Shown here piece after piece: positions 1,066 to 17,076 of a stretch of DNA of 27,894 bases. Under the pieces are notes generated by a model. It made no database searches and was not told the origin of the DNA. It saw nothing but the letters and a program-made list of their open reading frames with translations. The stretch comes from a virus. The translations under genes and the position numbers were made by a program. Position 1 is the first letter of the stretch, and every line of letters starts with the position of its first letter. Where the stretch lies: positions 1-27,894 of IMG/VR virus record IMGVR_UViG_3300017593_001694; one strand, 5' to 3'.

Positions 1066-1245
1066 ATGAGTGAGAAAACCTGTTGGGATTGTATCCATTT
1101 TCAAAGTGCTGGTTTAAAATGGCTTAATGATTTTGCCTGTTTAAAGTTTCCAAACAAAATTTTTAAAAATAACGATTTCAAACCCTGTGAACACTTTCAA
1201 GAAAGAATTAGAAAAAGAAAAAATAGTCAAGGAGCCTTAAAATGA
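1066..1245 (+). CDS. Small four-cysteine putative zinc-binding protein (59 aa)
   Basis: The start at ATG 1066 is set by a strong ribosome binding site (AAAGGAGG, 1053-1060). An in-frame ATG at 1030 overlaps the previous gene and has no such site. The product has cysteines at 6, 9, 25 and 41 in a CxxC-x15-C-x15-C arrangement with an aromatic-rich core, which is compatible with one structural zinc. The C-terminal tail is strongly basic (residues 48-59). The stop overlaps the ligase start (ATGA at 1242), indicating translational coupling with the ligase-phosphoesterase gene. Nucleic acid binding is plausible but is only inferred. Confidence 0.65.
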   Translation: MSEKTCWDCIHFQSAGLKWLNDFACLKFPNKIFKNNDFKPCEHFQERIRKRKNSQGALK

Positions 1246-3824
1246 AGTTTTATGCACAGAAAAAGTACGATGGAATAGCCTCTTCTATTCATTATGATGG
1301 TAAGGATAAGGTTTTAATTTTTTCTGATGACGGCTCCGATATTACCTCAAGGCTTCCCTGTATAGTCAAGGAAGTTAAGGAGATCCTTAAATCTCACTCT
1401 GCAATTTTATTGGCCGAGATTGAAAAGTGGAAGGGCAATGAACATCTTGGACGCGAATTCATGTCAGGTTATTTGCATGAAAAGAGCCCGCCTGAATGCG
1501 AAGGTTTAGTGGCTAATGTTTTTGATATAGTTTATTGGGACGGAAAGGATATTCACAATTTACCCTTTGAAGAAAGATTACTTTATCTCAAGAAAATCCC
1601 TTTCAAAGAATCGACTATTGGTGTACCCAGAAAAGATGTTTATCTCAATTTGTCTCCGACCTATTTTGTAGATTCTGAAGAAAAAGCTAAAACTGTATTG
1701 AATAAACTAGCTAACGCCCCAGCCTCCGAGGGCGCTATGCTGAAACTTCCAGATTTTAAATACTCATTAAGTGGGAGCACGACAGGATTAATTAAATACA
1801 AAAAATATGCCGAGATTCATGCAATTGTCTGGGCTAAACAGAGAACGAAAGATGGAAAGGCTTACAATTACTACTTTGCAATTAAATTTGATCCAAATGA
1901 TAATGTTGAACCAAATAGCGTAGTTGAAGTCAAGGGCAAAGAATATCTTAAGGCTGGGCGGACTTATAATACTAAAACAAAATGTGATATTGGCGATAAA
2001 ATTACAGTAAGATTTCATTCTTTGAATTTATATAAAAATTATAAGACCGGAAAAATAAGAGTACATTTATATGAGCCTATATTTTATGAGAAGCTAGATG
2101 AAGATGCTTCCATTGATTCGGTCAAAACCGTTCTTAGCATAGGAAAAGAATCCGGCCTTTTGAATGAGAAGCTGATCAAAAATCCTCAATTTTTGAGAAT
2201 CGAACCCGGCACGGCTATCTTAACTCATTCAGTTGTATTGCCTGTCAATATATCCCATTGTAAAATCCTAACTTCGAATCCATTTTTCCAGAAAGTTTTA
2301 GAAAATGAAAACGACTTCAAAGGTTTTTCATCTTTTCTAAAAGCTGAACTTCCTCCTGATTTCAAGGGTTTGAATAAAGTGGGTTTTATCCATCCTAGTT
2401 TCTTATATGCAATTCAAACAGAACAGATTTCTTATGATGAGGCTCGAAATTTAATTACAAAACTTCTCTTTGTCGCTGAGGAAATTGAAGGTCCAACTGA
2501 AAAACTCAAAAGCTTAGGAATTTTCAAAGCAGCTAATATATATTTAGTTTATCCTGATGAATCCAAGAATTACAAATATGTAATTCAAGCCCACTTCAGA
2601 GGAAAGTCGGTTCATTGGGACTTGAGGATGGAAAGTTCCGATAAAGATCATTTAATAGGTTGGACTATTGATGTTCAAATGCCGGGTGTTCTTAAAAAGC
2701 CGGTTCTTACCATGGAAGATGCCAGAGAAGCCTTGAAAAATTCCAAACTATGGAAAATAAATCCCCTAAGCGGCGAATGGGCTAAGAGAAAAAGAGGTTC
2801 CAAATATGTAAATGTATCAGTTCTTTGTGAAACTAAAGCTAAAGAACCCCTGCCCTGGATGGATTTCGAGGGGGTTACAAGAGCCGGCGGAAGAGAGGGC
2901 GAGCCAGGCTCTACTAAACAATACCCTGGAGTATTTATAATCATAGATAGGGGCGAGGTTGAGTATCTTGCGCAAAAAACCTATGTCCATGAATACTTCT
3001 TTCACGGCAAGATTCTCAAGGGAAGATATGTAATGAGACAACTTGAAAATATTTGGAGAGAAGAAAACAAAAATCTTGATTTTTTTGAGAAAAATGCTAT
3101 ATTATCAGTAGAAGATCAACTATTTGAAAAAAAGATTGAAGCACCAATAGAACCGCCAGTTGGACAGAGCCCAAAGGGTAAGGCTGCTTGGTTTTTTATA
3201 AGACCTAAGGATCAGACTCCTTATGTTCTTTCAAATAGGGCTGTCAAAAAAGAATGGTTGCCACCTAAAGGGATTTCGGCAATTCAGAGAGAACTAAGAA
3301 AGAAGGTTCCAAAAGAACTTCAGTATTGGAAGGTTGCCGACAGAAAAAAGGCTTTGGAACTTCGGAAGGAACTCAGAAAAAAATTTCTTGATTTGAAACT
3401 TATTAAATCCTTACCAACTGGAAAGTTTGTTTTACAATATCAATACTGGAGAGGTCCTATCATAATCAGAGAGGGTCCGTCCAGAGAACAATGGAATCTT
3501 CTGTTGGATTTTGGTGGTAAATTACTTAAATTTGTTTTAAATGATAATATTTTAGAAGTTAATAAAACGGCGGGCTATGAGGATAAAGTTAAGGCTGAGG
3601 ATTTTTCAGCTGAGGGTGAAATTAAGCCTAAAACTCGCCTGAATCCGACAAAGGAAACACCTTGTTGGATTGAAAAGTTAGATTCTGGTTCATTCAAAGT
3701 ATTTGATAAAAAACCCTCCTTTATCAAAGTTGAGTTTAAGGGTAAGAAGTTAGGAGGGCTTTGGGCTTTTTCTAAAAAAGAAAATGTTTGGGAAATAGAA
3801 AGATCAAAACTTCCAGGAGAATAA
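1242..3824 (+). CDS. ATP-dependent DNA ligase fused to LigD-type 3'-phosphoesterase domain plus a degenerate second copy
   Basis: The 860-residue protein begins with a ligase nucleotidyltransferase core: KYDG at 8-11 (motif I, with K8 the predicted adenylated lysine), FDIVYWDG at 94-101 (motif III), EGAMLK at 163-168 (motif IV) and IKYKK at 184-188 (motif V). An OB-fold-like stretch covers about 190-285. Residues about 440-605 match the LigD 3'-phosphoesterase fold: H451, then HWDLRME with H458, D460, R462 and E464, closing with HGKILKGRYVM (588-598). Residues about 725-860 repeat that layout with altered key residues. Residues 320-430 are unassigned. Very little precedes motif I, so there is no N-terminal DNA-binding domain. 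The gene ends two bases before the prohead protease. A role in sealing or trimming genome ends or nicks during packaging or entry is inference; nucleic acid ligation and end-trimming are the family activities. Confidence 0.82.
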   Translation: MKFYAQKKYDGIASSIHYDGKDKVLIFSDDGSDITSRLPCIVKEVKEILKSHSAILLAEIEKWKGNEHLGREFMSGYLHEKSPPECEGLVANVFDIVYWDGKDIHNLPFEERLLYLKKIPFKESTIGVPRKDVYLNLSPTYFVDSEEKAKTVLNKLANAPASEGAMLKLPDFKYSLSGSTTGLIKYKKYAEIHAIVWAKQRTKDGKAYNYYFAIKFDPNDNVEPNSVVEVKGKEYLKAGRTYNTKTKCDIGDKITVRFHSLNLYKNYKTGKIRVHLYEPIFYEKLDEDASIDSVKTVLSIGKESGLLNEKLIKNPQFLRIEPGTAILTHSVVLPVNISHCKILTSNPFFQKVLENENDFKGFSSFLKAELPPDFKGLNKVGFIHPSFLYAIQTEQISYDEARNLITKLLFVAEEIEGPTEKLKSLGIFKAANIYLVYPDESKNYKYVIQAHFRGKSVHWDLRMESSDKDHLIGWTIDVQMPGVLKKPVLTMEDAREALKNSKLWKINPLSGEWAKRKRGSKYVNVSVLCETKAKEPLPWMDFEGVTRAGGREGEPGSTKQYPGVFIIIDRGEVEYLAQKTYVHEYFFHGKILKGRYVMRQLENIWREENKNLDFFEKNAILSVEDQLFEKKIEAPIEPPVGQSPKGKAAWFFIRPKDQTPYVLSNRAVKKEWLPPKGISAIQRELRKKVPKELQYWKVADRKKALELRKELRKKFLDLKLIKSLPTGKFVLQYQYWRGPIIIREGPSREQWNLLLDFGGKLLKFVLNDNILEVNKTAGYEDKVKAEDFSAEGEIKPKTRLNPTKETPCWIEKLDSGSFKVFDKKPSFIKVEFKGKKLGGLWAFSKKENVWEIERSKLPGE

Positions 3825-3825
3825 A

Positions 3826-4767
3826 ATGGAAAAAGAAAAACCAAAATTCAATTTTCCTCTTCTAATCGAAAAAAGCATGGACGAAGATGGCGATTGGATT
3901 GTGGAGGGATTTGCTACCACCTCCGACCTTGACCTTGAATATGAAATAGTTTCTAAGGAGGCATATACAGATGCCGCTAAAGATCTCCTCAAATATTCTA
4001 CGGTTCTCTTCAACCACGAAGTAGATAGGCCAATAGGCAAAGTTATAGAAGCTGAGCCCAGAGATGAGGGCCTCTTTGTCAAAATTCTGATTTCAAAGAG
4101 TGTTCCTGAAATTTGGACTAAAATCAAAGAGGGGATCTTAAATCACTTTTCCATCAGGGCTTGTATCGAAGACTACGAAAAGGAATATAATCAAGATGTT
4201 GGACGTGAAGTTCTTATTGCTACTAAGATGAGAATTTTGGAGGTCAGTTTAGTTTCCGTTCCCGCCAATCCTAATGCTAGATCTATTAGATGGTACGTCC
4301 AAAAAGCTTTTAAGGAGCTAGAAGAGAAAAACAAAAAAGAGGTAAAGAAAAACGAGAACGAAAAAGAAAAGGAGAAAAAGATGGGTGCAATTGAAATAAT
4401 TCTAGACTTGCTGAAAGAGTTAAAACAGAAAGTCAAGGATGACTTAAAAGATGAGGTGGAAAAGATCATAACAGAGATGGGTAAGCTTCAGCGAAGAGGG
4501 CAGAATTATCCTTATCCCTATCCGTACCCTTATCCATATCCTTATCCAGCCCCGAAAAAAGAAGCAGATCCTAACAACGAACCAGAAATTCAGAAAAATG
4601 GTGATCCAGAGCCAAAACCGAACGAAGAAGATATAGAAAAGAAAGTTGAGGCTAAGGTTCAGGAAAAAATCAAAGAATTGGAAGAGGGTTGGAAGGAAAA
4701 AGAAAACAAGATCTTAGATGCCCTTTCTTCGCTTAACCAATTAATTCAAGACTTAAATAAAGAATGA
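3826..4767 (+). CDS. HK97-type prohead protease (S78-like) with C-terminal scaffold-like region
   Basis: Residues 1-155 match the HK97 prohead protease family: IVEGFATT near the N-terminus, LFNHE at 61-65 (catalytic His64), FSIRA at 108-112 (candidate nucleophile Ser109) and EVSLVSVPANPNA at 139-151. The protease cleaves scaffold and capsid delta domains inside the procapsid and then itself. Residues 165-185 are a Lys/Glu linker. Residues 186-313 are scaffold-like: a charged helix, an uninterrupted Pro-Tyr tract (about 229-241), a Pro/Glu-rich linker and a long C-terminal coiled coil (about 265-310). The ribosome binding site AGGAGA lies at the end of the ligase gene. The 3' third probably also makes a separate scaffold protein from an internal start at 4381. 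Confidence 0.92.
   Translation: MEKEKPKFNFPLLIEKSMDEDGDWIVEGFATTSDLDLEYEIVSKEAYTDAAKDLLKYSTVLFNHEVDRPIGKVIEAEPRDEGLFVKILISKSVPEIWTKIKEGILNHFSIRACIEDYEKEYNQDVGREVLIATKMRILEVSLVSVPANPNARSIRWYVQKAFKELEEKNKKEVKKNENEKEKEKKMGAIEIILDLLKELKQKVKDDLKDEVEKIITEMGKLQRRGQNYPYPYPYPYPYPYPAPKKEADPNNEPEIQKNGDPEPKPNEEDIEKKVEAKVQEKIKELEEGWKEKENKILDALSSLNQLIQDLNKE
4381..4767 (+). CDS. Putative nested scaffold protein from an internal in-frame start
   Basis: ATG 4381 is codon 186 of the protease frame. It is preceded by AAAAGGAGA (4367-4375), with six bases between GGAG and the ATG, as good as the ribosome binding sites used by full genes here. The predicted 128-residue product contains only the scaffold-like part: helix, Pro-Tyr tract, Pro/Glu linker and C-terminal coiled coil. 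The same plan is known from lambda, where Nu3 is made from within the protease gene C. I see no separate scaffold gene between protease and capsid, which supports the idea. Purine-rich DNA coding for Lys/Glu can mimic such sites by chance, so this remains a prediction. Confidence 0.5.
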   Translation: MGAIEIILDLLKELKQKVKDDLKDEVEKIITEMGKLQRRGQNYPYPYPYPYPYPYPAPKKEADPNNEPEIQKNGDPEPKPNEEDIEKKVEAKVQEKIKELEEGWKEKENKILDALSSLNQLIQDLNKE

Positions 4768-4781
4768 TGGAGGAATAAGAA

Positions 4782-6017
4782 ATGGATAATATCTTAAAAG
4801 TCATAAAAGACATCGAAAACGGAATCCAAAAACTCAGTGAAAGAGAAAAAGAAACAACTAAGATGGCAAAACAATATTTCAACTCTACTCTTCGAAAGGG
4901 CGAGTTCTTAATTGATGAAAAAACTAAAAATTTGCCTATCGAGTTCCAGAAGGCAGCCGATTATGCCTACATTGCCTCTATTCTTTTAAATAAAAAGGTC
5001 TCTGATTTAAGATTGTGGAATGAGGTCGAAAAAGAATTTTCTGAGATTAAGAAGGCGATGAGTGATACCGCTGGTGTTGGTGGGGACTGGGTTCCTACTG
5101 GCTTTTCGACCGATCTGATCAAGAAAGTTCGTTTGGATACGAAGGTTGCCTCTTTGTTTAGGCGAATTGACATGCCTAGAGATCCTTATACTTTGCCAAC
5201 TGCAACCGGGGATGCTACCGTTTATCTGCAGGGTGAAGCTAAAAATGATTCGCCCTCTAAATATAAGGCCTCTACCCCCACGACCGGGAATCTGCAGTTA
5301 AGTGCTAAAAAGCTTGCGGCTCGGGTTGTTTTTTCTGAAGAACTCGATGAAGATTCCTTAATTCCCATTCTGCCTTTTGTAAGGGACAATATCATAACTG
5401 CTTTAGCCGAGGCCGTTGAAAATGCAATCGTGAATGGCGATGATTCTGCGTCCCACATGGATTCTGATGTTACCGATTCTGATGATGTTCGTAAGGCGTT
5501 TAAGGGGCTGAGAAAACGCGGGATTATGTTGACCAACAGTCAGGTTGATGCCGGGAATTCCAAAATCACAAAAACCCTTTTAGCTCAACAAAGAGCAAAA
5601 ATGAAAAAGTATGGAATCGATCCTTCCAAATTGGCTTATGTTGTAAGTCCATTAGTTTACAACCAGTTCTTAAGTGAACTCGATAATGTTCAGACTCTTG
5701 ACAAATATGGTCCAAAGGCTATCGTTTTTACCGGTGAGTTAGGAAAATATATGGGTGTTCCCATAATCGTTTCCGACTTTATGAGAGATGACCTGAAGAG
5801 CGATGGCACTTACGGTGGAAGTCTAGGTGCTGTTCTTTTAGTCTATCGTCCTGGGTGGTTAATTGGTGATCGACGCAAGATTACCTTCAAGACCAAGGAA
5901 GACATTGATACCGGGCAAAATGTGGCTGTTACCACGCAGCGTCTTGATTTCATTTATCTATATACTGGTTCTACTGATTATGTAGTATCCTTAATGAGAA
6001 ACGTAAAATTGACTTAA
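4782..6017 (+). CDS. Major capsid protein, HK97 fold
   Basis: The 411-residue protein has the standard layout of HK97-type capsid proteins. Residues 1-90 form a charged helical region that fits the cleaved delta domain. Then comes AMSDTAGVGGDWVPTGFSTDL (92-112), followed by the N-arm and the E-loop/P-domain region (EELDEDS 186-192, helix PFVRDNIITALAEAVENAIVNGD 198-220). The end reads as the A-domain and a beta-rich C-terminus (about 300-411). Cleavage near K90-K91 by the upstream protease is plausible but cannot be fixed from sequence. A strong site GATGGAGGAA (4767-4776) precedes the ATG. The gene sits directly after protease and scaffold, the usual order. Confidence 0.93.
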   Translation: MDNILKVIKDIENGIQKLSEREKETTKMAKQYFNSTLRKGEFLIDEKTKNLPIEFQKAADYAYIASILLNKKVSDLRLWNEVEKEFSEIKKAMSDTAGVGGDWVPTGFSTDLIKKVRLDTKVASLFRRIDMPRDPYTLPTATGDATVYLQGEAKNDSPSKYKASTPTTGNLQLSAKKLAARVVFSEELDEDSLIPILPFVRDNIITALAEAVENAIVNGDDSASHMDSDVTDSDDVRKAFKGLRKRGIMLTNSQVDAGNSKITKTLLAQQRAKMKKYGIDPSKLAYVVSPLVYNQFLSELDNVQTLDKYGPKAIVFTGELGKYMGVPIIVSDFMRDDLKSDGTYGGSLGAVLLVYRPGWLIGDRRKITFKTKEDIDTGQNVAVTTQRLDFIYLYTGSTDYVVSLMRNVKLT

Positions 6018-6486: not shown

Positions 6487-7134
6487 ATGTTACCTATTAG
6501 TGCTTGTTTGATTGTTAGAAATGAAGAAAAATATATCAAGCGATGTCTTCAGTCACTACCAGAGGTTAAAGAAATTCTGATAATCGACCAAAACTCAACT
6601 GATAATACTTTAGAAGAGATTCGTTCTTTGAAAAAAGATAACATCAAAGTTTTTCAGCGTCCCAATATAGGGAATGCCGATCCGATGCGAAATTTTTTAT
6701 ATTCTCTTGCATCTCAACCTTGGATCTTAGCTCTTGATGCTGACGAGTATCTCAGCAAGAAGACTAAATCAGTAATTCCATATTTAATTGATCTGAAACC
6801 CTCTTATGATGTTTTTTGGTTCTTTTTTGAGAACTTAGTAGAGGGGAAGAATATAAGAGAGATTTTAGGCGATGATCCCCACCCCCGCCTTTTTAGAAAA
6901 GGTGCTCTGGTTTGGCCTACCACTTTACATACATACCCTGAAATAAAAAGTCCCTTCCAATTTTGGGTTGACCGTCAATATAAGATAATACACGATAGAA
7001 CTTTAGAAGATATTAGAAGGAGCCATAAAAATAGAAAAAAACTTTTAGATCCAAGAGCAAGACAACAAGAGTTAGTTTTTCTAAAAAAACTTATGGCTTA
7101 TTTAGGAGTTGAGGACAACTTAGAATGGTTTTAA
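6487..7134 (+). CDS. Family 2 glycosyltransferase (215 aa)
   Basis: The N-terminus ISACLIVRNEEKYIKRCLQSL (4-24) is the nucleotide-sugar binding start of GT2 enzymes. IDQNSTDNT (33-41) and the metal-binding LDADEYL (83-89, D84 and D86) follow. The C-terminal 90 residues include an HPRLFRKG stretch seen in bacterial GT2 enzymes of this size, and a basic helix. No membrane segment is present, so it should be a soluble enzyme transferring a sugar from a nucleotide donor. The acceptor is unknown. It is the first of four glycosyltransferase genes and is preceded by AAAGGAGGC, which may be masked by the upstream hairpin loop. Confidence 0.9.
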   Translation: MLPISACLIVRNEEKYIKRCLQSLPEVKEILIIDQNSTDNTLEEIRSLKKDNIKVFQRPNIGNADPMRNFLYSLASQPWILALDADEYLSKKTKSVIPYLIDLKPSYDVFWFFFENLVEGKNIREILGDDPHPRLFRKGALVWPTTLHTYPEIKSPFQFWVDRQYKIIHDRTLEDIRRSHKNRKKLLDPRARQQELVFLKKLMAYLGVEDNLEWF

Positions 7135-7162
7135 TTTTAATTTTAAAAAGGAGGTATTAAAT

Positions 7163-8764
7163 ATGTTTATGGCAAAACCTATTAAATCGGCTCTTATCCA
7201 GAGATACGGGGGAATTGGGGATTCGATGATTTGCACTTCATTAGCAAGAATCATCAAAGAAGTTTATAAGTGCAAGGTTGATTTTGCAGTAAGAGATACT
7301 CTTGCTCCCTTATTTGAAAATCTTGATTGTTTTGATAAAGTGTTTCCCATTCAAAGGTTTCAACCTGGACATGTTGATACAATAAAAACAAAGTATGGAT
7401 ATGCCGCTCTTTCCAGTTTCAAGAGAAAATATGATCTTGATGCTGATATGAAAAATTCTATCGAAAACAATAAGAGTGGCAATAATTTTCATTTAGGTCC
7501 CTGGGCCAATTCAGTTAATTCCAACTATTTCCATTGGTTAGATATGCATCTTAGTTGGGTTAACATAGATTGGACCAAAATTCCAGACGAGTGGAAAAGA
7601 CCAATTTATAGGGTGAAAGATGAAGAATCAAATTGGGCGGAATCTATTTTGAATGATTTTAAGACGAGAATTGGCGTCCAGATGGTTGCAAGTTCTCTGG
7701 CTAGAACTTATTATGCAGCCCATTTTTTACCACCCTTACTAGCAAAAAGATTCTCAGCTATTGTTTTGTTCTGGGATGGAAATCAATGGCTGATTTTTAC
7801 GAAAGAAGGAAGGATTGGTAATCTAAAATGCACCTTACGACAATCCGCTGCCTTAGTTTCTAAACTGAATCTGTTTATTTCGGCCGATTCTGGCTTTTCT
7901 CATATTGCTGAAGCTTTAGGCGTTCCTTCTATTTCGCTTTATTCAACTGTTCCCTCTTGGACTAGGGTTAAATATTATAAATACACAATTCCATTAGAGG
8001 TTGATATACCTTGTAGGCCATGTTTCACTCTTCAAAGATATTGTCCGGCCCGGCAAAAACAAGCAATTGATTCGCTTAGCAAAAGAGAAAAAAGAATTCT
8101 TTGGGCACAAAAAACCGGAGTTCCAATTCAAGTCGTAGCCCAGGAATTAAATACCACGGTTGAAGGCATTTCAAGAGAGTTTGCATCAATAAAGGAAAGG
8201 CTTGAGTCTCAATCTATGATTCAGGCTAAGTGCTTGAATCTAATTTCCATAGATGAGATTTTACTAACGGCTGAAAATATTTTGAAAGGAGAATTCAAGG
8301 CCTTTCAAATTAAAAGGCCCATCAATGTTTTCATAGAGGGAACCAAAGAAACCAAAATCAAGAAAATCAAGAAAATCCTTTCTAATGAAAAGGTTGAAAT
8401 TCGTTTTCTTAATTCGATTGGCGAGGCTGATCCTTCTTATCATCTTTTAATTTTAACAGAAGATGTGATTCCGCCTCAGTTTTTTCTTGAGAGAATGGCG
8501 AAAAGGCTTGAAACCTTAAATTGTGACGCCTTGGTTCCACAAATTCGCTTTTGCAAGGTGAATGAGATTGAAAAGGTCTCAGAAGACTTTATGTCACAAA
8601 TTCAAAATATTCCAATAGAAGAAACCAAAAAGGTGACACTGATTTCAAGCGCGGTTCTCAGGAAGTTAAATCAGCTTTCTAAAAAGAGTATTATTAATCA
8701 CTTACATTCTATTTTTGAGGCCAAAGATATTTTTATATATGACAAAAAAGGAGGAAAAATATGA
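7163..8764 (+). CDS. GT9 (heptosyltransferase-like) glycosyltransferase with an inserted HTH-like segment and a C-terminal extension
   Basis: RYGGIGDSMICTSLARIIKE (14-33) is the GT9 N-terminal glycine motif, and SADSGFSHIAEALGVPSISLY (240-260) is the GT9 donor-binding motif with D242 and H247. A Cys cluster CxxC-x6-C (284, 287, 294) follows. In GT9-like phage proteins I would expect it to lead shortly into a segment like CLNLISIDEIL (357-367). Here about 55 residues (298-352) intervene and resemble a sigma-70 region 4 or LuxR-type helix-turn-helix. Residues about 385-533 look like a worn GT2-type domain without a clear metal motif. At 533 residues it is clearly longer than a plain GT9. Its stop overlaps the next start (ATGA). 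A strong site AAAAGGAGG lies upstream. Confidence 0.82.
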   Translation: MFMAKPIKSALIQRYGGIGDSMICTSLARIIKEVYKCKVDFAVRDTLAPLFENLDCFDKVFPIQRFQPGHVDTIKTKYGYAALSSFKRKYDLDADMKNSIENNKSGNNFHLGPWANSVNSNYFHWLDMHLSWVNIDWTKIPDEWKRPIYRVKDEESNWAESILNDFKTRIGVQMVASSLARTYYAAHFLPPLLAKRFSAIVLFWDGNQWLIFTKEGRIGNLKCTLRQSAALVSKLNLFISADSGFSHIAEALGVPSISLYSTVPSWTRVKYYKYTIPLEVDIPCRPCFTLQRYCPARQKQAIDSLSKREKRILWAQKTGVPIQVVAQELNTTVEGISREFASIKERLESQSMIQAKCLNLISIDEILLTAENILKGEFKAFQIKRPINVFIEGTKETKIKKIKKILSNEKVEIRFLNSIGEADPSYHLLILTEDVIPPQFFLERMAKRLETLNCDALVPQIRFCKVNEIEKVSEDFMSQIQNIPIEETKKVTLISSAVLRKLNQLSKKSIINHLHSIFEAKDIFIYDKKGGKI

Positions 8765-9432
8765 AATTCAGTATTATAATTCCAACTTACAACGCTTCTG
8801 AATTTCTTGAATTCACATTGCAAGATTTGGTGAATTTCACAAATGGCGATTTCGAAATTCTATTAGGATTTAAGAACGCAACACCAGAAGTCAAGGAGGT
8901 AGCCGATAAATTCTCAAGAAAATATCGGTACATCAAGAAAATGAGAACTTCTTCAGATGAGGTTTATCAGAAAATTAATGAGCTAGTTAAGCTATCTTCT
9001 AATGAAAAGGTTGTATTTTTAAACGATGACATGGCTTTTTCACCCGATTGGAATGTAGATTTGGTTTCAAGAATCAGGAAAGATACTTTTGTGGTTGCTC
9101 AGGTTTTCGATTCAAATTATTTGAACGATGGGATTGAGGCAGGTAATCATCCAAAGGAATTCAACAGAGAATACTTTTATAGTAAAATTAAAGAGTATCA
9201 AAGACGAAAAATTAAAACTAGATTCTTTCCTATGCCGCTTGGTTTTATGAAGGCAGATTTTTTAGAGGTTGGAGGTTATCCCAACTCAAACTATTTTCCC
9301 TACCCCAATGATCTTGAGTTTTTGAATAAATTGGGAATGCTTAACAAAAAATTTGATTTTGCTGAGAATTCTTTTGTGTATCATTTTATAAGAGGCTCTC
9401 AGCGCGAAGATAATTTAGGCTTAACGTATTAA
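8761..9432 (+). CDS. Family 2 glycosyltransferase (223 aa)
   Basis: FSIIIPTYNASEFLEFTLQDL (3-23) is the canonical GT2 opening, and VFLNDDM (85-91, with D89 and D90) is the metal and nucleotide-sugar site. A later MPLGFMKADFLEVGGYP segment and the PYPNDLEFLNKL helix match the acceptor-side region of GT2 enzymes. The protein is soluble, with no membrane segment. The ATG overlaps the preceding stop (ATGA), with GGAGG inside the end of the GT9 gene, so the two are translationally coupled. The donor sugar cannot be told from sequence. Confidence 0.88.
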   Translation: MKFSIIIPTYNASEFLEFTLQDLVNFTNGDFEILLGFKNATPEVKEVADKFSRKYRYIKKMRTSSDEVYQKINELVKLSSNEKVVFLNDDMAFSPDWNVDLVSRIRKDTFVVAQVFDSNYLNDGIEAGNHPKEFNREYFYSKIKEYQRRKIKTRFFPMPLGFMKADFLEVGGYPNSNYFPYPNDLEFLNKLGMLNKKFDFAENSFVYHFIRGSQREDNLGLTY

Positions 9433-9443
9433 AGGAGGCTAAA

Positions 9444-10205
9444 ATGTATATAGTGATTCCAAGTTATAATGCACCTCACAAATTGGAAGCTCTTTTAAAA
9501 GATTTGTCAGCATATAATTTGGATACAATTGTGGTTGAAAACTCAACACCAGAATACCAAGAAAAATGTTTAGAAGTTTGTAAAAAATTTCCCTTTGTGA
9601 TGCCGCTTTCCTTTCCGGGACCACTAGGTTTTACAGAGGCTGTTAATCATGGCTTAAAATGGGGTGGCGTACAGGATGTCTGGCTCTTGAACCAAGATTG
9701 TCGATTAATAGGTGATCCAATTACACCTCTAACTACTTTTATGGCGTCAAATCCCAAAGCTGGAATTATTTCCTCAATTTTATTGGATATGAATTGTCAT
9801 TCCAAAGTGGTTTTTGGCGGTGGGTTGTCAATTTTAAGGGGGCAGCATAAAACCGGTTTGGTTCAATTCTTCCAAAAGCCAACTAAGGAATCATGGGTCA
9901 CTTTTGGCTCAGTTTATCTTAGAAGAGAAATGATAAGAGAGGTTGGCTTACTAGACAAGAAGATGAGAATGATTTTCTCAGATTCAGACTATTGTTTAAG
10001 AGCTAGATATGCCGGATGGGAAGTCTGGGTTGAGCCTAAAAGCAAGGTCGCCCATCTTGAGGAGGAGGGATTTTCAAGAGCCAGCAATCCCGATAAAAGC
10101 AAAGAAAGACTTTGGATATTACAAAGGGATTCATTTTATTTTCATTTGAAATGGGCTAATTCTTTAATTTTTGCTGATTTAGAAAATGAAGTATTGGAGG
10201 AATAA
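9444..10205 (+). CDS. Family 2 glycosyltransferase, rhamnosyltransferase (WbbL)-like
   Basis: YIVIPSYNAPHKLEALLKDL (2-21) opens the GT2 fold, WLLNQDC (80-86) is the metal-site region, and GLLDKKMRMIFSDSDYCLRA (168-187) is the acceptor/base motif of WbbL-like rhamnosyl or related transferases. It is followed by GWEVWVEPKSKVAHLE (191-206). The AAAGGAGGC site before the ATG is identical to that of the first glycosyltransferase of the island. The gene ends with a TAATG overlap into the next, connector-like gene, so the island is fused into the structural operon and not simply inserted with its own borders. Confidence 0.88.
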   Translation: MYIVIPSYNAPHKLEALLKDLSAYNLDTIVVENSTPEYQEKCLEVCKKFPFVMPLSFPGPLGFTEAVNHGLKWGGVQDVWLLNQDCRLIGDPITPLTTFMASNPKAGIISSILLDMNCHSKVVFGGGLSILRGQHKTGLVQFFQKPTKESWVTFGSVYLRREMIREVGLLDKKMRMIFSDSDYCLRARYAGWEVWVEPKSKVAHLEEEGFSRASNPDKSKERLWILQRDSFYFHLKWANSLIFADLENEVLEE

Positions 10206-12950: not shown

Positions 12951-13399
12951 ATTTAACGGTCGATCCTTCTAAGTATGATTGCGAGCTTTGTGAAAAGCGA
13001 ACAATGAAGAATCGGACTCCTGGGAGACTATGCTTATTAAACCGGGATCTTGAAAAGGAACCCTTAAAGGTAAGGAGTGGAAAGGTCTTGCATTCTTTCT
13101 TAGAGCTAGATTCAGAATTGGAGGAACTAGAAGAAAAATATCCAATCGAATTAGCTCTAAGAAAGTTGGGAATTTGCCCCAAGAGCTTTCCACTCGACCA
13201 CTTTACTTTAAGGGCACTTGAGCTTTATGATTTAACCCATGGCGGACCCAATGGAACCGACTTAATAAATCTTCCTTGTGCGCCTGTTGTGTTAGACAAC
13301 CCAAATTTATTCTTTGAAATTAGGGAAATTATTACCGTTGAAAAACTTAAAATTTTAAAGGAGAAAGAAGAGGAAAATGCCCGTAAAAGCAAAAATTAG
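12929..13399 (+). CDS. T extension of the tail assembly chaperone GT fusion
   Basis: After -1 slippage, translation continues from CTC at 12929 and gives a GT protein of about 279 residues (12561-12929 joined to 12929-13399). The first ATG in this frame is 13004, but sensible coding sequence precedes it (LTVDPSKYDCELCEKRTMKN), so independent initiation is unlikely. The part contains a CxxC pair plus a third Cys (DCELC ... GRLC), which may bind metal, then an acidic helix (LELDSELEELEEKYPIELAL) and a helical C-terminus. T-type extensions bind the tail tube protein and link it to the tape measure complex. It ends 23 bases inside the next gene. Confidence 0.8.
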   Translation, partial: LRRGVRLNLTVDPSKYDCELCEKRTMKNRTPGRLCLLNRDLEKEPLKVRSGKVLHSFLELDSELEELEEKYPIELALRKLGICPKSFPLDHFTLRALELYDLTHGGPNGTDLINLPCAPVVLDNPNLFFEIREIITVEKLKILKEKEEENARKSKN

Positions 13400-13883
13400 A
13401 CATACCGTTGATGGGCACGTTATGAACTTTTGGTTAGTACTTCCCAAGCGGTTTAATATACCGATTCAGAGAGAATTAAAAAGAAAAATCGCAGCTCTAA
13501 TGGTAAGAGCCCTTAAGGGTCTTTCAGGGTTTAATACCGGCTTATTAAAAAATAAGGAACCTAGCGGGAAATCTTTTGCACCCTTATCTGAGACTACTTT
13601 AGAAATTCGGAAGAAAAGAGGAATAAGAGCCGGCGCCGATCAGATCCTGAAAGAAACCAGAAAACATATTTACAACCAAATAGACTACAAAATCGAAGAA
13701 AGTAAAGTTAGGGCTGGTGTTTTTACAGAGGATAAATGGATCGCGGGCCTGCATGACAAGGGATATACCACCAAAATTTTTGGCAAAAAAACTGTTAAAG
13801 TGCCTTCTCGAAAAATATTTGGTTTTTCAAAGACTTTAGAAGAAAAGATTTTAAAAGAACTAAAGGATCATTTCTATGCTTAG
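13377..13883 (+). CDS. Tail completion / virion morphogenesis protein (Phage_tail_S-like)
   Basis: The 168-residue protein has the pattern of phage virion morphogenesis proteins: an N-terminal helix, then GKSFAPLSETTLEIRKKRG, ILKETRKHIYNQIDYKI, a VRAGVF strand, a LHDKGYTT segment and PSRKIFGFS near the end. In the family these match GxxWxPL, LxxTGxLxxSI, VxxG, HQxGG and PARxFLG. The family acts in tail completion or in joining head and tail. Its place between the chaperone pair and the tape measure is unusual, because such proteins normally precede the tail tube. Its start overlaps the end of GT, and its end overlaps the tape measure start. Confidence 0.72.
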   Translation: MPVKAKIRHTVDGHVMNFWLVLPKRFNIPIQRELKRKIAALMVRALKGLSGFNTGLLKNKEPSGKSFAPLSETTLEIRKKRGIRAGADQILKETRKHIYNQIDYKIEESKVRAGVFTEDKWIAGLHDKGYTTKIFGKKTVKVPSRKIFGFSKTLEEKILKELKDHFYA

Positions 13884-16800
13884 AACTGAGATTCAAGTTA
13901 CCTTTGATGTTCAGCGAGCGAAACAGGCCGAATCTGCCATAGAGGGCGTTTCTAAAAGTATTGAAAAGCATAACTATTTTGTGGATTCCATGCTCCATAG
14001 ATGGGATTCTGTGGCGAAGGCTTATGTTTCGTTTCAAATCATCAGAGGATTAGGATTACTTTTCAAGGAGGTCGGATATGGCATTATAGAAGCAAACGCC
14101 CAGATGGAGTATTTTAGGGAGCAATTAAGTGTTGTGGCAGGTTCGCTTCCCAGGGCGCGAGAGCTTTTAGATTGGCTCACTAAATTTGCGATCGAAACCC
14201 CCTTTGTTATAAAGGATGTAATCGACGCTTCTATTCGAATGCAGTCCTTTGGTGTTGCCACTCAGAAATATCTAAAATATGTAGGTGATTGGGCTGCGAT
14301 GATGAGAACTAGCATATCGGACATGGCCGTTCGGTTTGGAAAGGTTGTTCTGGGTTCGCAACAGACCAATCGCTTGCTTGCCAGAATGGGTATTAGTATG
14401 AGTGAATTCAACGCTGCCCTTATGAAAACTGGTGACAGAGCCGAGGCCCTCGCATCGATAATTCGGACCAAATTTCCTGATGCCATGCACAAAATGGTTT
14501 TCACCTTTAAGGGGTTGCTCTCTAACCTTGAAGACGTTTTCTTTATTTTAAAATACAAAATTGGACAAGCAGTTTTCACCCTAGTGAGTGAAGATTTTGC
14601 AAATCTTCATAAAAGATTAAGAGAAATTGCTACTAGTCGAACTGCGCTTTTAAGAATAGCTGAATCTATTAAAGAAATTTATATTAGGGCTAAAGAGGCT
14701 GCCATTAGCTTGGGAAATTTTTTCATTACAACCAAAAAAATAGTAGATTTGGTGACTTTAAGAGGAGGTTTAGGTGCTATATTCTGGGCTTCATTTATGC
14801 CCTTATTAATCACAGTCATTGAAAGAAGCCGAATTTTCCTTGCGCTTGAAAAGGCTTGGTTGACTTATTTTGTGGCCTGTAAAGGTTCTTTAGGGCAAAT
14901 AGTTGGAATTCTAAAGCTAGCCCTGAAAGGTTCTATTGGAATCAAAGATGCTTGGCGAGCAATTTCTCTTGTGACCCTTCCGGTCAGGGGAACTTTAATG
15001 GGAATCTTGGTCCTGACCGGTTTGATTGGGAAAAAGATAGATGATTCTTTTAAAACCTGGAAAGAAACGAATTCTGTGCTTTCTAAAAGCTCTGAACTTC
15101 TAAATCAAATAGTCTCATTTTATTATAGTGAAACCGAAGCCTCTGAGCAGGGTCTAGAAATTCTTAGAAATCAAAAAGCAGCTCTTGAATTAAGAATAGC
15201 AGACATCCAACGAACTATAAGCCAATATGATAAGCTAACTTATCTTCAAAAATTCATTCTCAAAGGTGATGAAAAGGCAATAAGGAATCTTGATACTCTT
15301 CGCTCTACCCTTGAAAAATTAACTGAGTACTATACTAAGATTTCCGAAAGGGAAGCTGAATGGTCCAGATTGCTGAGTTCAAATGAGATTACAAGCCGGA
15401 AAATTACCGACACATGGTACAAAATGGTACTTTTCAAGGCCGAGGCTGGAAAATATAATCTGGAATGGGGCATCTCGCTAGAAAAGGCTCGTTCTCTTCT
15501 CACTGATGCACTTGAAAAATTAAAAGAACGAAACGAGAATTTTGAACTACAACTAAAAATCGCAAAGCAATTAGATCTTTGGAATAGAAAAGACCTCAAA
15601 GGTGAAACTGATAGGCTTACCAAACTTATGAGTCAGTTCAATGAAGAATTCAAGATTTTAAAACTGAAAAGAGATACGCATCAGATTACGGTAGAAGAGT
15701 TCAAAACACTTGGTGATATTTTAATCGAAAAGATAAAGAAAGCTGAATTAACTGCAAATGAGATTCAAAAACTAAAGCTAATTTCCCTTCAGCTTAAAAT
15801 TCAAAAAGAAATTGAATCCACTATTGAGGAAACTAGAAGACAAGCTATTTCTAATATTACTGAGGAAAACAGAGCCCTTTCAACCACCATTAGAATTCTT
15901 GAATTAAAAAGAAAAAGAAACCAAATATCTCAAAGGGAGCTTTTAAGTGGATATGAGGAAGCGATTAAGGTTCTCAACGACCAAATAAAGCGACTCGAGA
16001 AAATTGGTGGTGCTAATCAGGAAATTCTTTCTTTGATGCAAAATAGGGAAGAGATTGAAAAGAAAATTTATCAACTCAAAAATTATATCAAAGAAGGAAT
16101 AAATGAAAATTTATATTTGGAAAATAAAGTCAATAAGTTTTTAAACGAAAGAGAGTTAAGCCTTCTTAGAATCCATGATAAAATGGTGGTCTCTAAAGAA
16201 GAGCTGCGAGAACAAGTGGAGGCGGCCCTAGAATATTATAGAGCCCATCAAGATGCGGCGAATTCAATAGAACTGCAAAAAGAAGCCCTGAGAGCCCTAA
16301 AAGATATTGGATTGGCCCCATCTGATTGGTTTAATAGGGAGTTTTGGGATTCTCTTAAAGCTGAGCTACTTGCTTATTATGAAGATATTACCAATAGAGT
16401 CAGGGATACGATGGTCAGCTCTTTTTCAGAGATGGAATCTATTCTTTCTGATTTCTTCGTTTCAGCCATGGATAAAGAAACTACTTTCAAAGAAGTCAGA
16501 GAGGAATTATGGACCTCTTTCTTTGATTTTCTAAAAAGAAAAATTTCTGAGATAGCTGCAATGTGGTTCTTACAGAAGACTCTAGAATTATTTGGAATTA
16601 GAAGCCTTTACCGAAGTGAAGAGGGAAGATTAGATCTTATGAAACAAATAAGAAAAGAAGCTGTTGTAACTCAGGCCATTCAGGTTGCTGGTTCAGTTGC
16701 TGCCTACAAACTTACCCAAAAAACGGCAAGTGAGATGAAAAGGGCTGCCTATTGGGCACTGGCTAAATCTGCTTTCTCTAGTTTTAATCCCTTTGTGGCA

Positions 16801-17076
16801 TTTGCTACATTAGCCACAGGCGCTGGTGTGCTGAAAGCTGGCGAGAAAGCATTTATGAAAGCAGCTCAAGGGTTTGAGGGTATGGTTACCAGGCCAACTC
16901 TTTTTCTGGCTGGCGAAGCTGGCCCGGAAAGAGTAAGTATAACACCTGAGGGTGCTTTACCCTCCCCAACTGAAGGTGGTGTGGTTATTCAAGTGATGGG
17001 CGATGTCTATGATTTTCAAGATTTTGTAGAAAAGGTTCATACGGCGAAAGCTGAAATTATAAAGGAAACTTTGTAA
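13876..17076 (+). CDS. Tail tape measure protein
   Basis: At 1066 residues it is the longest protein in the window and directly follows the chaperones. Residues 1-240 resemble the N-terminal tape measure domain: AQMEYFREQLSVVAGS (75-90), FAIETPFVIKDVIDASIRMQSFG (104-126), then LLARMGISMSEF (167-178). Residues about 297-385 hold hydrophobic segments that could form membrane-active helices at DNA entry. Residues 390-900 are long coiled coil. The C-terminus has a hydrophobic Ala-rich stretch and GFEGMVTRPTLFLAGEAGPE, the usual tape measure ending. Using the known ratio of about 0.15 nm per residue, the tail would be near 160 nm. No lysozyme or peptidase domain is visible. Confidence 0.93.
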   Translation: MLRTEIQVTFDVQRAKQAESAIEGVSKSIEKHNYFVDSMLHRWDSVAKAYVSFQIIRGLGLLFKEVGYGIIEANAQMEYFREQLSVVAGSLPRARELLDWLTKFAIETPFVIKDVIDASIRMQSFGVATQKYLKYVGDWAAMMRTSISDMAVRFGKVVLGSQQTNRLLARMGISMSEFNAALMKTGDRAEALASIIRTKFPDAMHKMVFTFKGLLSNLEDVFFILKYKIGQAVFTLVSEDFANLHKRLREIATSRTALLRIAESIKEIYIRAKEAAISLGNFFITTKKIVDLVTLRGGLGAIFWASFMPLLITVIERSRIFLALEKAWLTYFVACKGSLGQIVGILKLALKGSIGIKDAWRAISLVTLPVRGTLMGILVLTGLIGKKIDDSFKTWKETNSVLSKSSELLNQIVSFYYSETEASEQGLEILRNQKAALELRIADIQRTISQYDKLTYLQKFILKGDEKAIRNLDTLRSTLEKLTEYYTKISEREAEWSRLLSSNEITSRKITDTWYKMVLFKAEAGKYNLEWGISLEKARSLLTDALEKLKERNENFELQLKIAKQLDLWNRKDLKGETDRLTKLMSQFNEEFKILKLKRDTHQITVEEFKTLGDILIEKIKKAELTANEIQKLKLISLQLKIQKEIESTIEETRRQAISNITEENRALSTTIRILELKRKRNQISQRELLSGYEEAIKVLNDQIKRLEKIGGANQEILSLMQNREEIEKKIYQLKNYIKEGINENLYLENKVNKFLNERELSLLRIHDKMVVSKEELREQVEAALEYYRAHQDAANSIELQKEALRALKDIGLAPSDWFNREFWDSLKAELLAYYEDITNRVRDTMVSSFSEMESILSDFFVSAMDKETTFKEVREELWTSFFDFLKRKISEIAAMWFLQKTLELFGIRSLYRSEEGRLDLMKQIRKEAVVTQAIQVAGSVAAYKLTQKTASEMKRAAYWALAKSAFSSFNPFVAFATLATGAGVLKAGEKAFMKAAQGFEGMVTRPTLFLAGEAGPERVSITPEGALPSPTEGGVVIQVMGDVYDFQDFVEKVHTAKAEIIKETL

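Follow-up and report, generated by a model that had tools for sequence, protein, structure and literature searches.

Bacterial LigD and the archaeal NHEJ Lig/PE of M. paludicola combine a DNA ligase (LIG) with a phosphoesterase (PE) fold, either within a single polypeptide or through neighboring genes, and both carry the PE metal triad and Arg, features that they share with the viral protein described here. The phosphate-binding residues His84 and Tyr88 are described as strictly conserved in LigD PE (PMC4797286), and in P. aeruginosa LigD both are essential, with mutation inactivating PE (PMC8656161). Among viruses, the mycobacteriophages Omega and Corndog use end-joining for infection (cited in PMC7719229); a published screen of about 3,000 actinobacteriophages turned up no NHEJ components (PMC7719229). 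In T4 and SPN3US, internal proteins cut by the prohead protease remain inside the head until they are ejected (PMC7411985). For the polyvalent proteins of phages and conjugative elements, Iyer et al. 2017 (PMC5512222) propose packaging and injection, and they report such proteins to be scarce in archaea. In the literature searched, we found no description of the ligase/LigD-PE combination, nor of a family of head-operon DNA-end-processing proteins such as the domain chemistry predicted from sequence would make this one.

The window, 27,894 nucleotides from IMG/VR virus record IMGVR_UViG_3300017593_001694, encodes the protein upstream of head and tail genes:

1242..3824, plus strand: whole gene, LIG - linker - PE1 - MID - PE2, 860 aa (ORF call)
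1242..2156, plus strand: ATP-dependent DNA ligase catalytic core (nucleotidyltransferase and OB), residues 1-305 (Pfam, Foldseek/VIA, motifs)
1263-1265, plus strand: codon of the motif I lysine, Lys8 (motif conservation)
2178..2549, plus strand: low-confidence linker, residues 313-436 (AF2 pLDDT <50)
2562..3059, plus strand: PE1, LigD-PE-like, residues 441-606 (profiles, motif)
2592-2594, 2613-2615, 2619-2621 and 2625-2627, plus strand: PE1 key codons H451, H458, D460 and R462
3159..3407, plus strand: MID module, residues 640-722, P-x-DQTPYVL...PP.G.SA... (family-wide conservation)
3417..3815, plus strand: PE2, second PE-like domain, residues 726-858 (VIA, profile homology)
3826..4767, plus strand: prohead serine protease, Peptidase_S78 (Pfam E 2.2e-9)
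4782..6017, plus strand: HK97-type major capsid protein (PF05065, E 1.6e-15)
13377..17076, plus strand: tail completion/neck protein and tape measure protein (annotation by search)

A first-pass annotation had placed an 860-residue protein at 1242-3824 in a head gene cluster. The ORF is real: it starts with ATG on the plus strand, overlaps the end of the preceding ORF by 4 bases, and has the Peptidase_S78 protease and then the HK97-type capsid gene directly downstream. The gap to the protease, given as two bases, is in fact one (stop at 3824, protease start at 3826). Because capsid, glycosyltransferase, neck and tape measure genes follow, we assign the gene to a late morphogenesis operon. The glycosyltransferase genes (families 2 and 9) occupy positions 6487-10205, between the capsid and tail genes. 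No portal gene was detected in the window, which may begin downstream of its portal gene.

The N-terminal third of the protein is recognizable as a DNA ligase. DNA_ligase_A_M (PF01068) matches residues 2-187 (E 2.7e-17), and the structure model of residues 1-305 superposes on the cores of archaeal and human DNA ligases with Z about 22 (Foldseek/VIA). The hallmarks of ATP-dependent DNA ligases are present, namely motif I (KxDG), the Glu after motif I, motifs IV (EG) and V (K), and an OB domain. Across 58 aligned ligase rows, K8 is kept in 56 and E59, E163 and K185 are each kept in all, and this conservation, with the Pfam match, bears out the motifs I, IV and V read by the first-pass annotation. 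The window LIG lacks an N-terminal DNA-binding domain and is also N-terminally short, since only 7 aa precede the motif I Lys, compared with at least 45 aa in 54 of the 58 rows; residue 1 aligns to human LIG1 561 and M. tuberculosis LigD 474. Without the stretch that relatives have ahead of motif I, the window LIG is less certain to be active. A frameshifted N-terminus was considered and rejected, as no ligase-like N-terminal sequence lies upstream in any frame. The linker, residues 313-436, is mostly missing from the other eight members of alignment A2.

PE1 bears HFRGKSVHWDLRME, in which the HWDLRME motif spans residues 458-464. Its metal ligands H451, H458 and D460 are conserved in 52, 54 and 54 of 55 aligned members, respectively, and the adjacent R462 in 54, corresponding to the metal triad His42/His48/Asp50 and Arg52 of LigD PE. 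Further near-invariant residues, K532, E584, R595 and R599, are new. The equivalents of LigD His84 and Tyr88, in a register that depends on the alignment, are E535 (Glu or Gln in the family) and W539 (Trp in 55/55), and PE1 thus differs at two of the six positions said to be strictly conserved in LigD PE. With these two equivalents lacking, 3'-phosphatase chemistry should therefore not be assumed. By sequence, PE1 is a PE relative with an altered phosphate pocket and not a standard LigD PE.

Several searches connect this region to LigD. Pfam LigD_N is marginal on the window protein alone (E 0.003-0.08) and matches five of 26 members, the best at 1.1e-5. A 55-sequence PE1-MID-PE2 profile finds LigD PE domains of known structure (PDB 3p43, 3.6e-9; 3p4h, 3e-7). 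A PE1-only profile matched the PDB weakly (0.028), and the identity of PE1 therefore rests on PE1-PE2 homology, the LigD_N matches and the motif. MID has no sequence match in the PDB. In the AF2 model (pLDDT 88), the PE2 region (residues 726-857) matches LigD PE structures with VIA Z scores of 12.7-16.9, including 16.9 to 3p43 (1.7 Å over 116 residues) and 16.1 to 3p4h; Foldseek ranks 1-6 are all LigD PE, and the next VIA row, an unrelated protein, scores Z 4.6. Because a profile of PE1 aligns with one of PE2 (hhalign 97.4%, E 1.2e-11), we conclude that the PE is duplicated within the protein. PE2 is degenerate in most family members: HWDLR is kept in about ten of 55 and reads QWNLL in the window. 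Thus a PE domain with HWDLRxE stands as first described, supported by the family profile, and neither profile nor structure searches placed residues 440-605 in an unrelated fold. The description of the protein as a LIG and PE pair holds for both modules and fails for a simple LigD-like pair, given the changed PE1 residues and the PE2 and MID modules, neither of which the first-pass annotation had recognized.

Single-sequence searches with the window protein or its homolog from the ANMV-1 virus found almost nothing, and it was an alignment of two sequences that opened the family. An alignment-based scan of IMG/VR yielded 89 relatives; the 80 that were kept represent 78 distinct loci. The set of LIG, PE1, MID and PE2 occurs in the ANMV-1 virus, the only full-length relative among 50,697 phage records, and in at least 70 IMG/VR contigs; five contigs of archaeal and bacterial MAGs carry relatives as well. 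Members are about 25-50% identical to the window protein and encode the modules, at times with a third PE, in one ORF or in neighboring ORFs. Foldseek against viral models gave a single match below 1e-3, long and loose. The archaeal marker TBP was present in only 2 of 26 records; we consider the hosts to be archaea and probably bacteria. PE1-MID occurs without LIG at six loci whose ORF starts are intact (L038, L060, L069, L071, L079 and L094), and ligation therefore cannot be the sole function of the family. Additional domains on family polypeptides include Dam (10 of 40 ORFs), metallo-beta-lactamase (6 of 40) and 2H (2 of 40), and two ORFs (L008:1316-5221 and L010:6406-11202) have an N-terminal match to queuine tRNA-ribosyltransferase (TGT-like, phrog_887, about 3e-11 and 5.5e-11). 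In the window copy, the enzymatic modules are LIG and PE only.

The family ORFs also show an assortment of rearrangements. At six loci (L028, L029, L030, L031, L032 and L052) the ligase is divided between two adjoining ORFs at about the same point, with the motif I half upstream and the second half opening the PE ORF (4-base overlap in L031 and L032), an arrangement that could represent a naturally split DNA ligase. An in-frame interruption of about 310 aa in the LIG of L081:6068-10636 is likely an intein; Pfam intein/Hint and LAGLIDADG domains occur once among the 40 ORFs scanned. About 2.1 kb of other sequence separates the ligase-gene halves at 6784-8905 of L020 (same record as L058). L016:6373-11187 has about 550 added residues between its N-terminal region and NTase motif, absent from its close relative L015, and the PEGA domain match among the 40 ORFs may come from this insert. 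Upstream of LIG, about 25 of 76 family ORFs (for example, L010:8461-8937) carry GGxxxxGxTxGDIDxL, a pol-beta-type nucleotidyltransferase-like motif with a weak profile match to one NTase (E 0.0048).

The position of the gene is conserved across the family. A head gene was detectable in 38 of 48 other IMG/VR records, as well as in ANMV-1, always on the strand of the family gene, contrary to any absence of the gene from the head clusters of all relatives. Detected prohead proteases were either fused to the family polypeptide (13 records) or encoded at most 220 bp downstream (9 records), with no other arrangement. Capsid genes lie downstream in 16/16, mostly 0.9-3.7 kb away, whereas MuF is upstream in 16/17 records and portal in 19/20, the sole exception for both being L033, whose gene sits at a contig end. 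In ANMV-1, the portal is directly upstream, and a weak MuF match is found downstream instead of upstream. This portal (AJP62005, L003:1913-3193; PF06381, 6.5e-24) is annotated 'MutT-like phage hydrolase', and the gene after the ligase (L003:5868-9368) encodes a large Cys-rich repeat protein with the weak MuF match at its C terminus.

The fused protease, XkdF, is C-terminal and in frame in all 13 records. Fusions cluster on the tree, where four changes are needed and at least two are forced by well-supported branches; the tree group 'XkdF_fused' takes in L025 as a presumed fusion. As an apparent precedent for fusion we considered, and rejected, the 'DNA methyltransferase' labels of Pseudomonas phages such as Kassivere. 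The Kassivere CDS (L098:3003-3467, 465 bp) is only protease-sized and matches XkdF prohead protease; its label is probably a misannotation.

Conserved placement in dozens of distant viruses, often with protease fusion, suggests that the protein resides in the particle and mends DNA on delivery. We give a probability of roughly 0.5 to the reading that it is a new subtype of polyvalent virion protein, predicted to be packaged, processed in the head and ejected, and to repair or close incoming DNA. The protein, which is one polypeptide with the prohead protease in many relatives, would co-assemble with it in the procapsid core and would be freed by it during head maturation. It would then stay with the packaged DNA and be ejected with it. 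We regard this as the simplest model, and the T4 Alt and internal proteins and SPN3US E proteins provide a precedent for such a route (PMC7411985). In the new host, metal-dependent PE1 would trim 3' ends and LIG would seal nicks, gaps or genome ends of the incoming DNA, so that the linear genome would be kept or made intact before viral gene expression. We infer this repair of the entering genome from the ligase and PE-like domains. Consistent with it, the LIG motifs and PE1 metal triad are near-invariant despite about 25-50% identity to the window. Counting against it are the PE1 lacking His84/Tyr88 equivalents, the short window LIG, the mostly degenerate PE2, the six loci lacking LIG, and the MuF-containing gene downstream in ANMV-1. 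The virion- or packaging-linked role first proposed for the gene from this one locus gains strong support from its context in relatives (placement between portal/MuF and protease/capsid, repeated XkdF fusion); the specific jobs suggested for it, namely nick sealing, 3'-end cleaning and genome closure, stay conjectural. A more specific version, to which we give somewhat less than even odds, is a kit for Ku-independent DNA end-joining or nick repair that is delivered in the virion. It would be synthesized as one polyprotein with the prohead protease, be released by that protease during capsid maturation, use a PE domain with a new phosphate-binding site, and occur widely among uncultivated tailed viruses.

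Location in a late operon and coupling to the protease would also suit a procapsid-associated protein that acts in the producing cell, repairing nicks or 3' blocks in the concatemer or trimming terminase-cut ends and keeping the motor unstalled, with ejection unneeded. We regard this as rather unlikely: protease fusion would put the protein inside the procapsid, away from the terminase, and the Dam, metallo-beta-lactamase, TGT-like and 2H fusions look more like ejected polyvalent proteins than a packaging factor, a pattern that makes injection a good fit for the family. Alternatively, PE1-MID may mainly be an internal core, a scaffold-like or DNA-binding module carrying passenger enzymes into the prohead, with PE catalysis secondary or lost. 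Its persistence without LIG in those six loci, the catalytic degeneration of PE2, the two replaced PE1 residues and a gene position where scaffold or core functions sit are all in keeping with this. Near-invariance of H451, H458, D460 and R462 in 55 divergent members is nevertheless hard to explain without metal-dependent chemistry, and we consider such a module improbable as the main function.

It is also conceivable that this is an ordinary viral replication or repair ligase whose gene lies in the late region by chance, as the family ligase is the only ATP-dependent ligase found in most records. However, two clades that diverge deep in the tree share the slot and strand of the gene, and fusion to the protease is repeated; because strand and order are identical across many divergent records, we do not attribute the position to chance. 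One 107-kb relative also encodes a second, separate ligase, and the family ligase therefore need not be replicative. We judge this explanation highly improbable.

If the polyvalent reading is correct, the entering genome would bring its own DNA ligation and 3'-end processing instead of relying on synthesis in the infected cell, which would offer a new explanation of how linear viral DNA escapes host nucleases and is closed when it enters. Polyvalent proteins would then also include ones for DNA end repair and would reach into archaeal viruses, in which they were considered scarce. Repeated fusion of the prohead protease to DNA repair enzymes gives a direct, testable hint as to how cargo gets into a capsid.

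Compared with LigD and the M. paludicola Lig/PE, the viral protein has PE in tandem, a MID module, a head-gene location, and His84 and Tyr88 of LigD PE changed to Glu/Gln and an invariant Trp. The first-pass annotation had remarked on the absence of a polymerase module and Ku from the protein, and neither was found in the records tested, which may be incomplete: the LigD POL (AEP) module (TIGR02778) in 0/25 and Ku (PF02735) in 0/28, where Ku could be supplied by the host. The protein is therefore at most like part of LigD, and we do not file it as LigD. Omega and Corndog bring Ku and borrow host LigD, whereas here the virus encodes a ligase of its own and Ku was not detected. The T4 Alt and internal proteins and the SPN3US ejection proteins serve as a model in which the prohead protease matures head proteins that leave together with the DNA (PMC7411985); there the protease is a separate gene, and the likeness drawn here is one of role. 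With polyvalent proteins, described in passages of PMC5512222 as large, multidomain products of late or virion genes with methylase, 2H, NTase and protease domains, the family shares several unrelated enzymatic domains per polypeptide and a virion-gene setting in a portal-terminase virus. The passages found there on ligases concern RNA ligases and mention neither LigD-type PE nor XkdF, and we found no constant LIG-PE1-MID-PE2 core or in-frame XkdF fusion in that paper. Closest is ANMV-1 AJP62006 (KP703175), annotated as 'ATP-dependent DNA ligase' only and not mentioned in the 2015 ANMV-1 paper. It is a full-length homolog with the same modules, encoded directly after the portal gene, and differs by an N-terminal region with the pol-beta-like motif.
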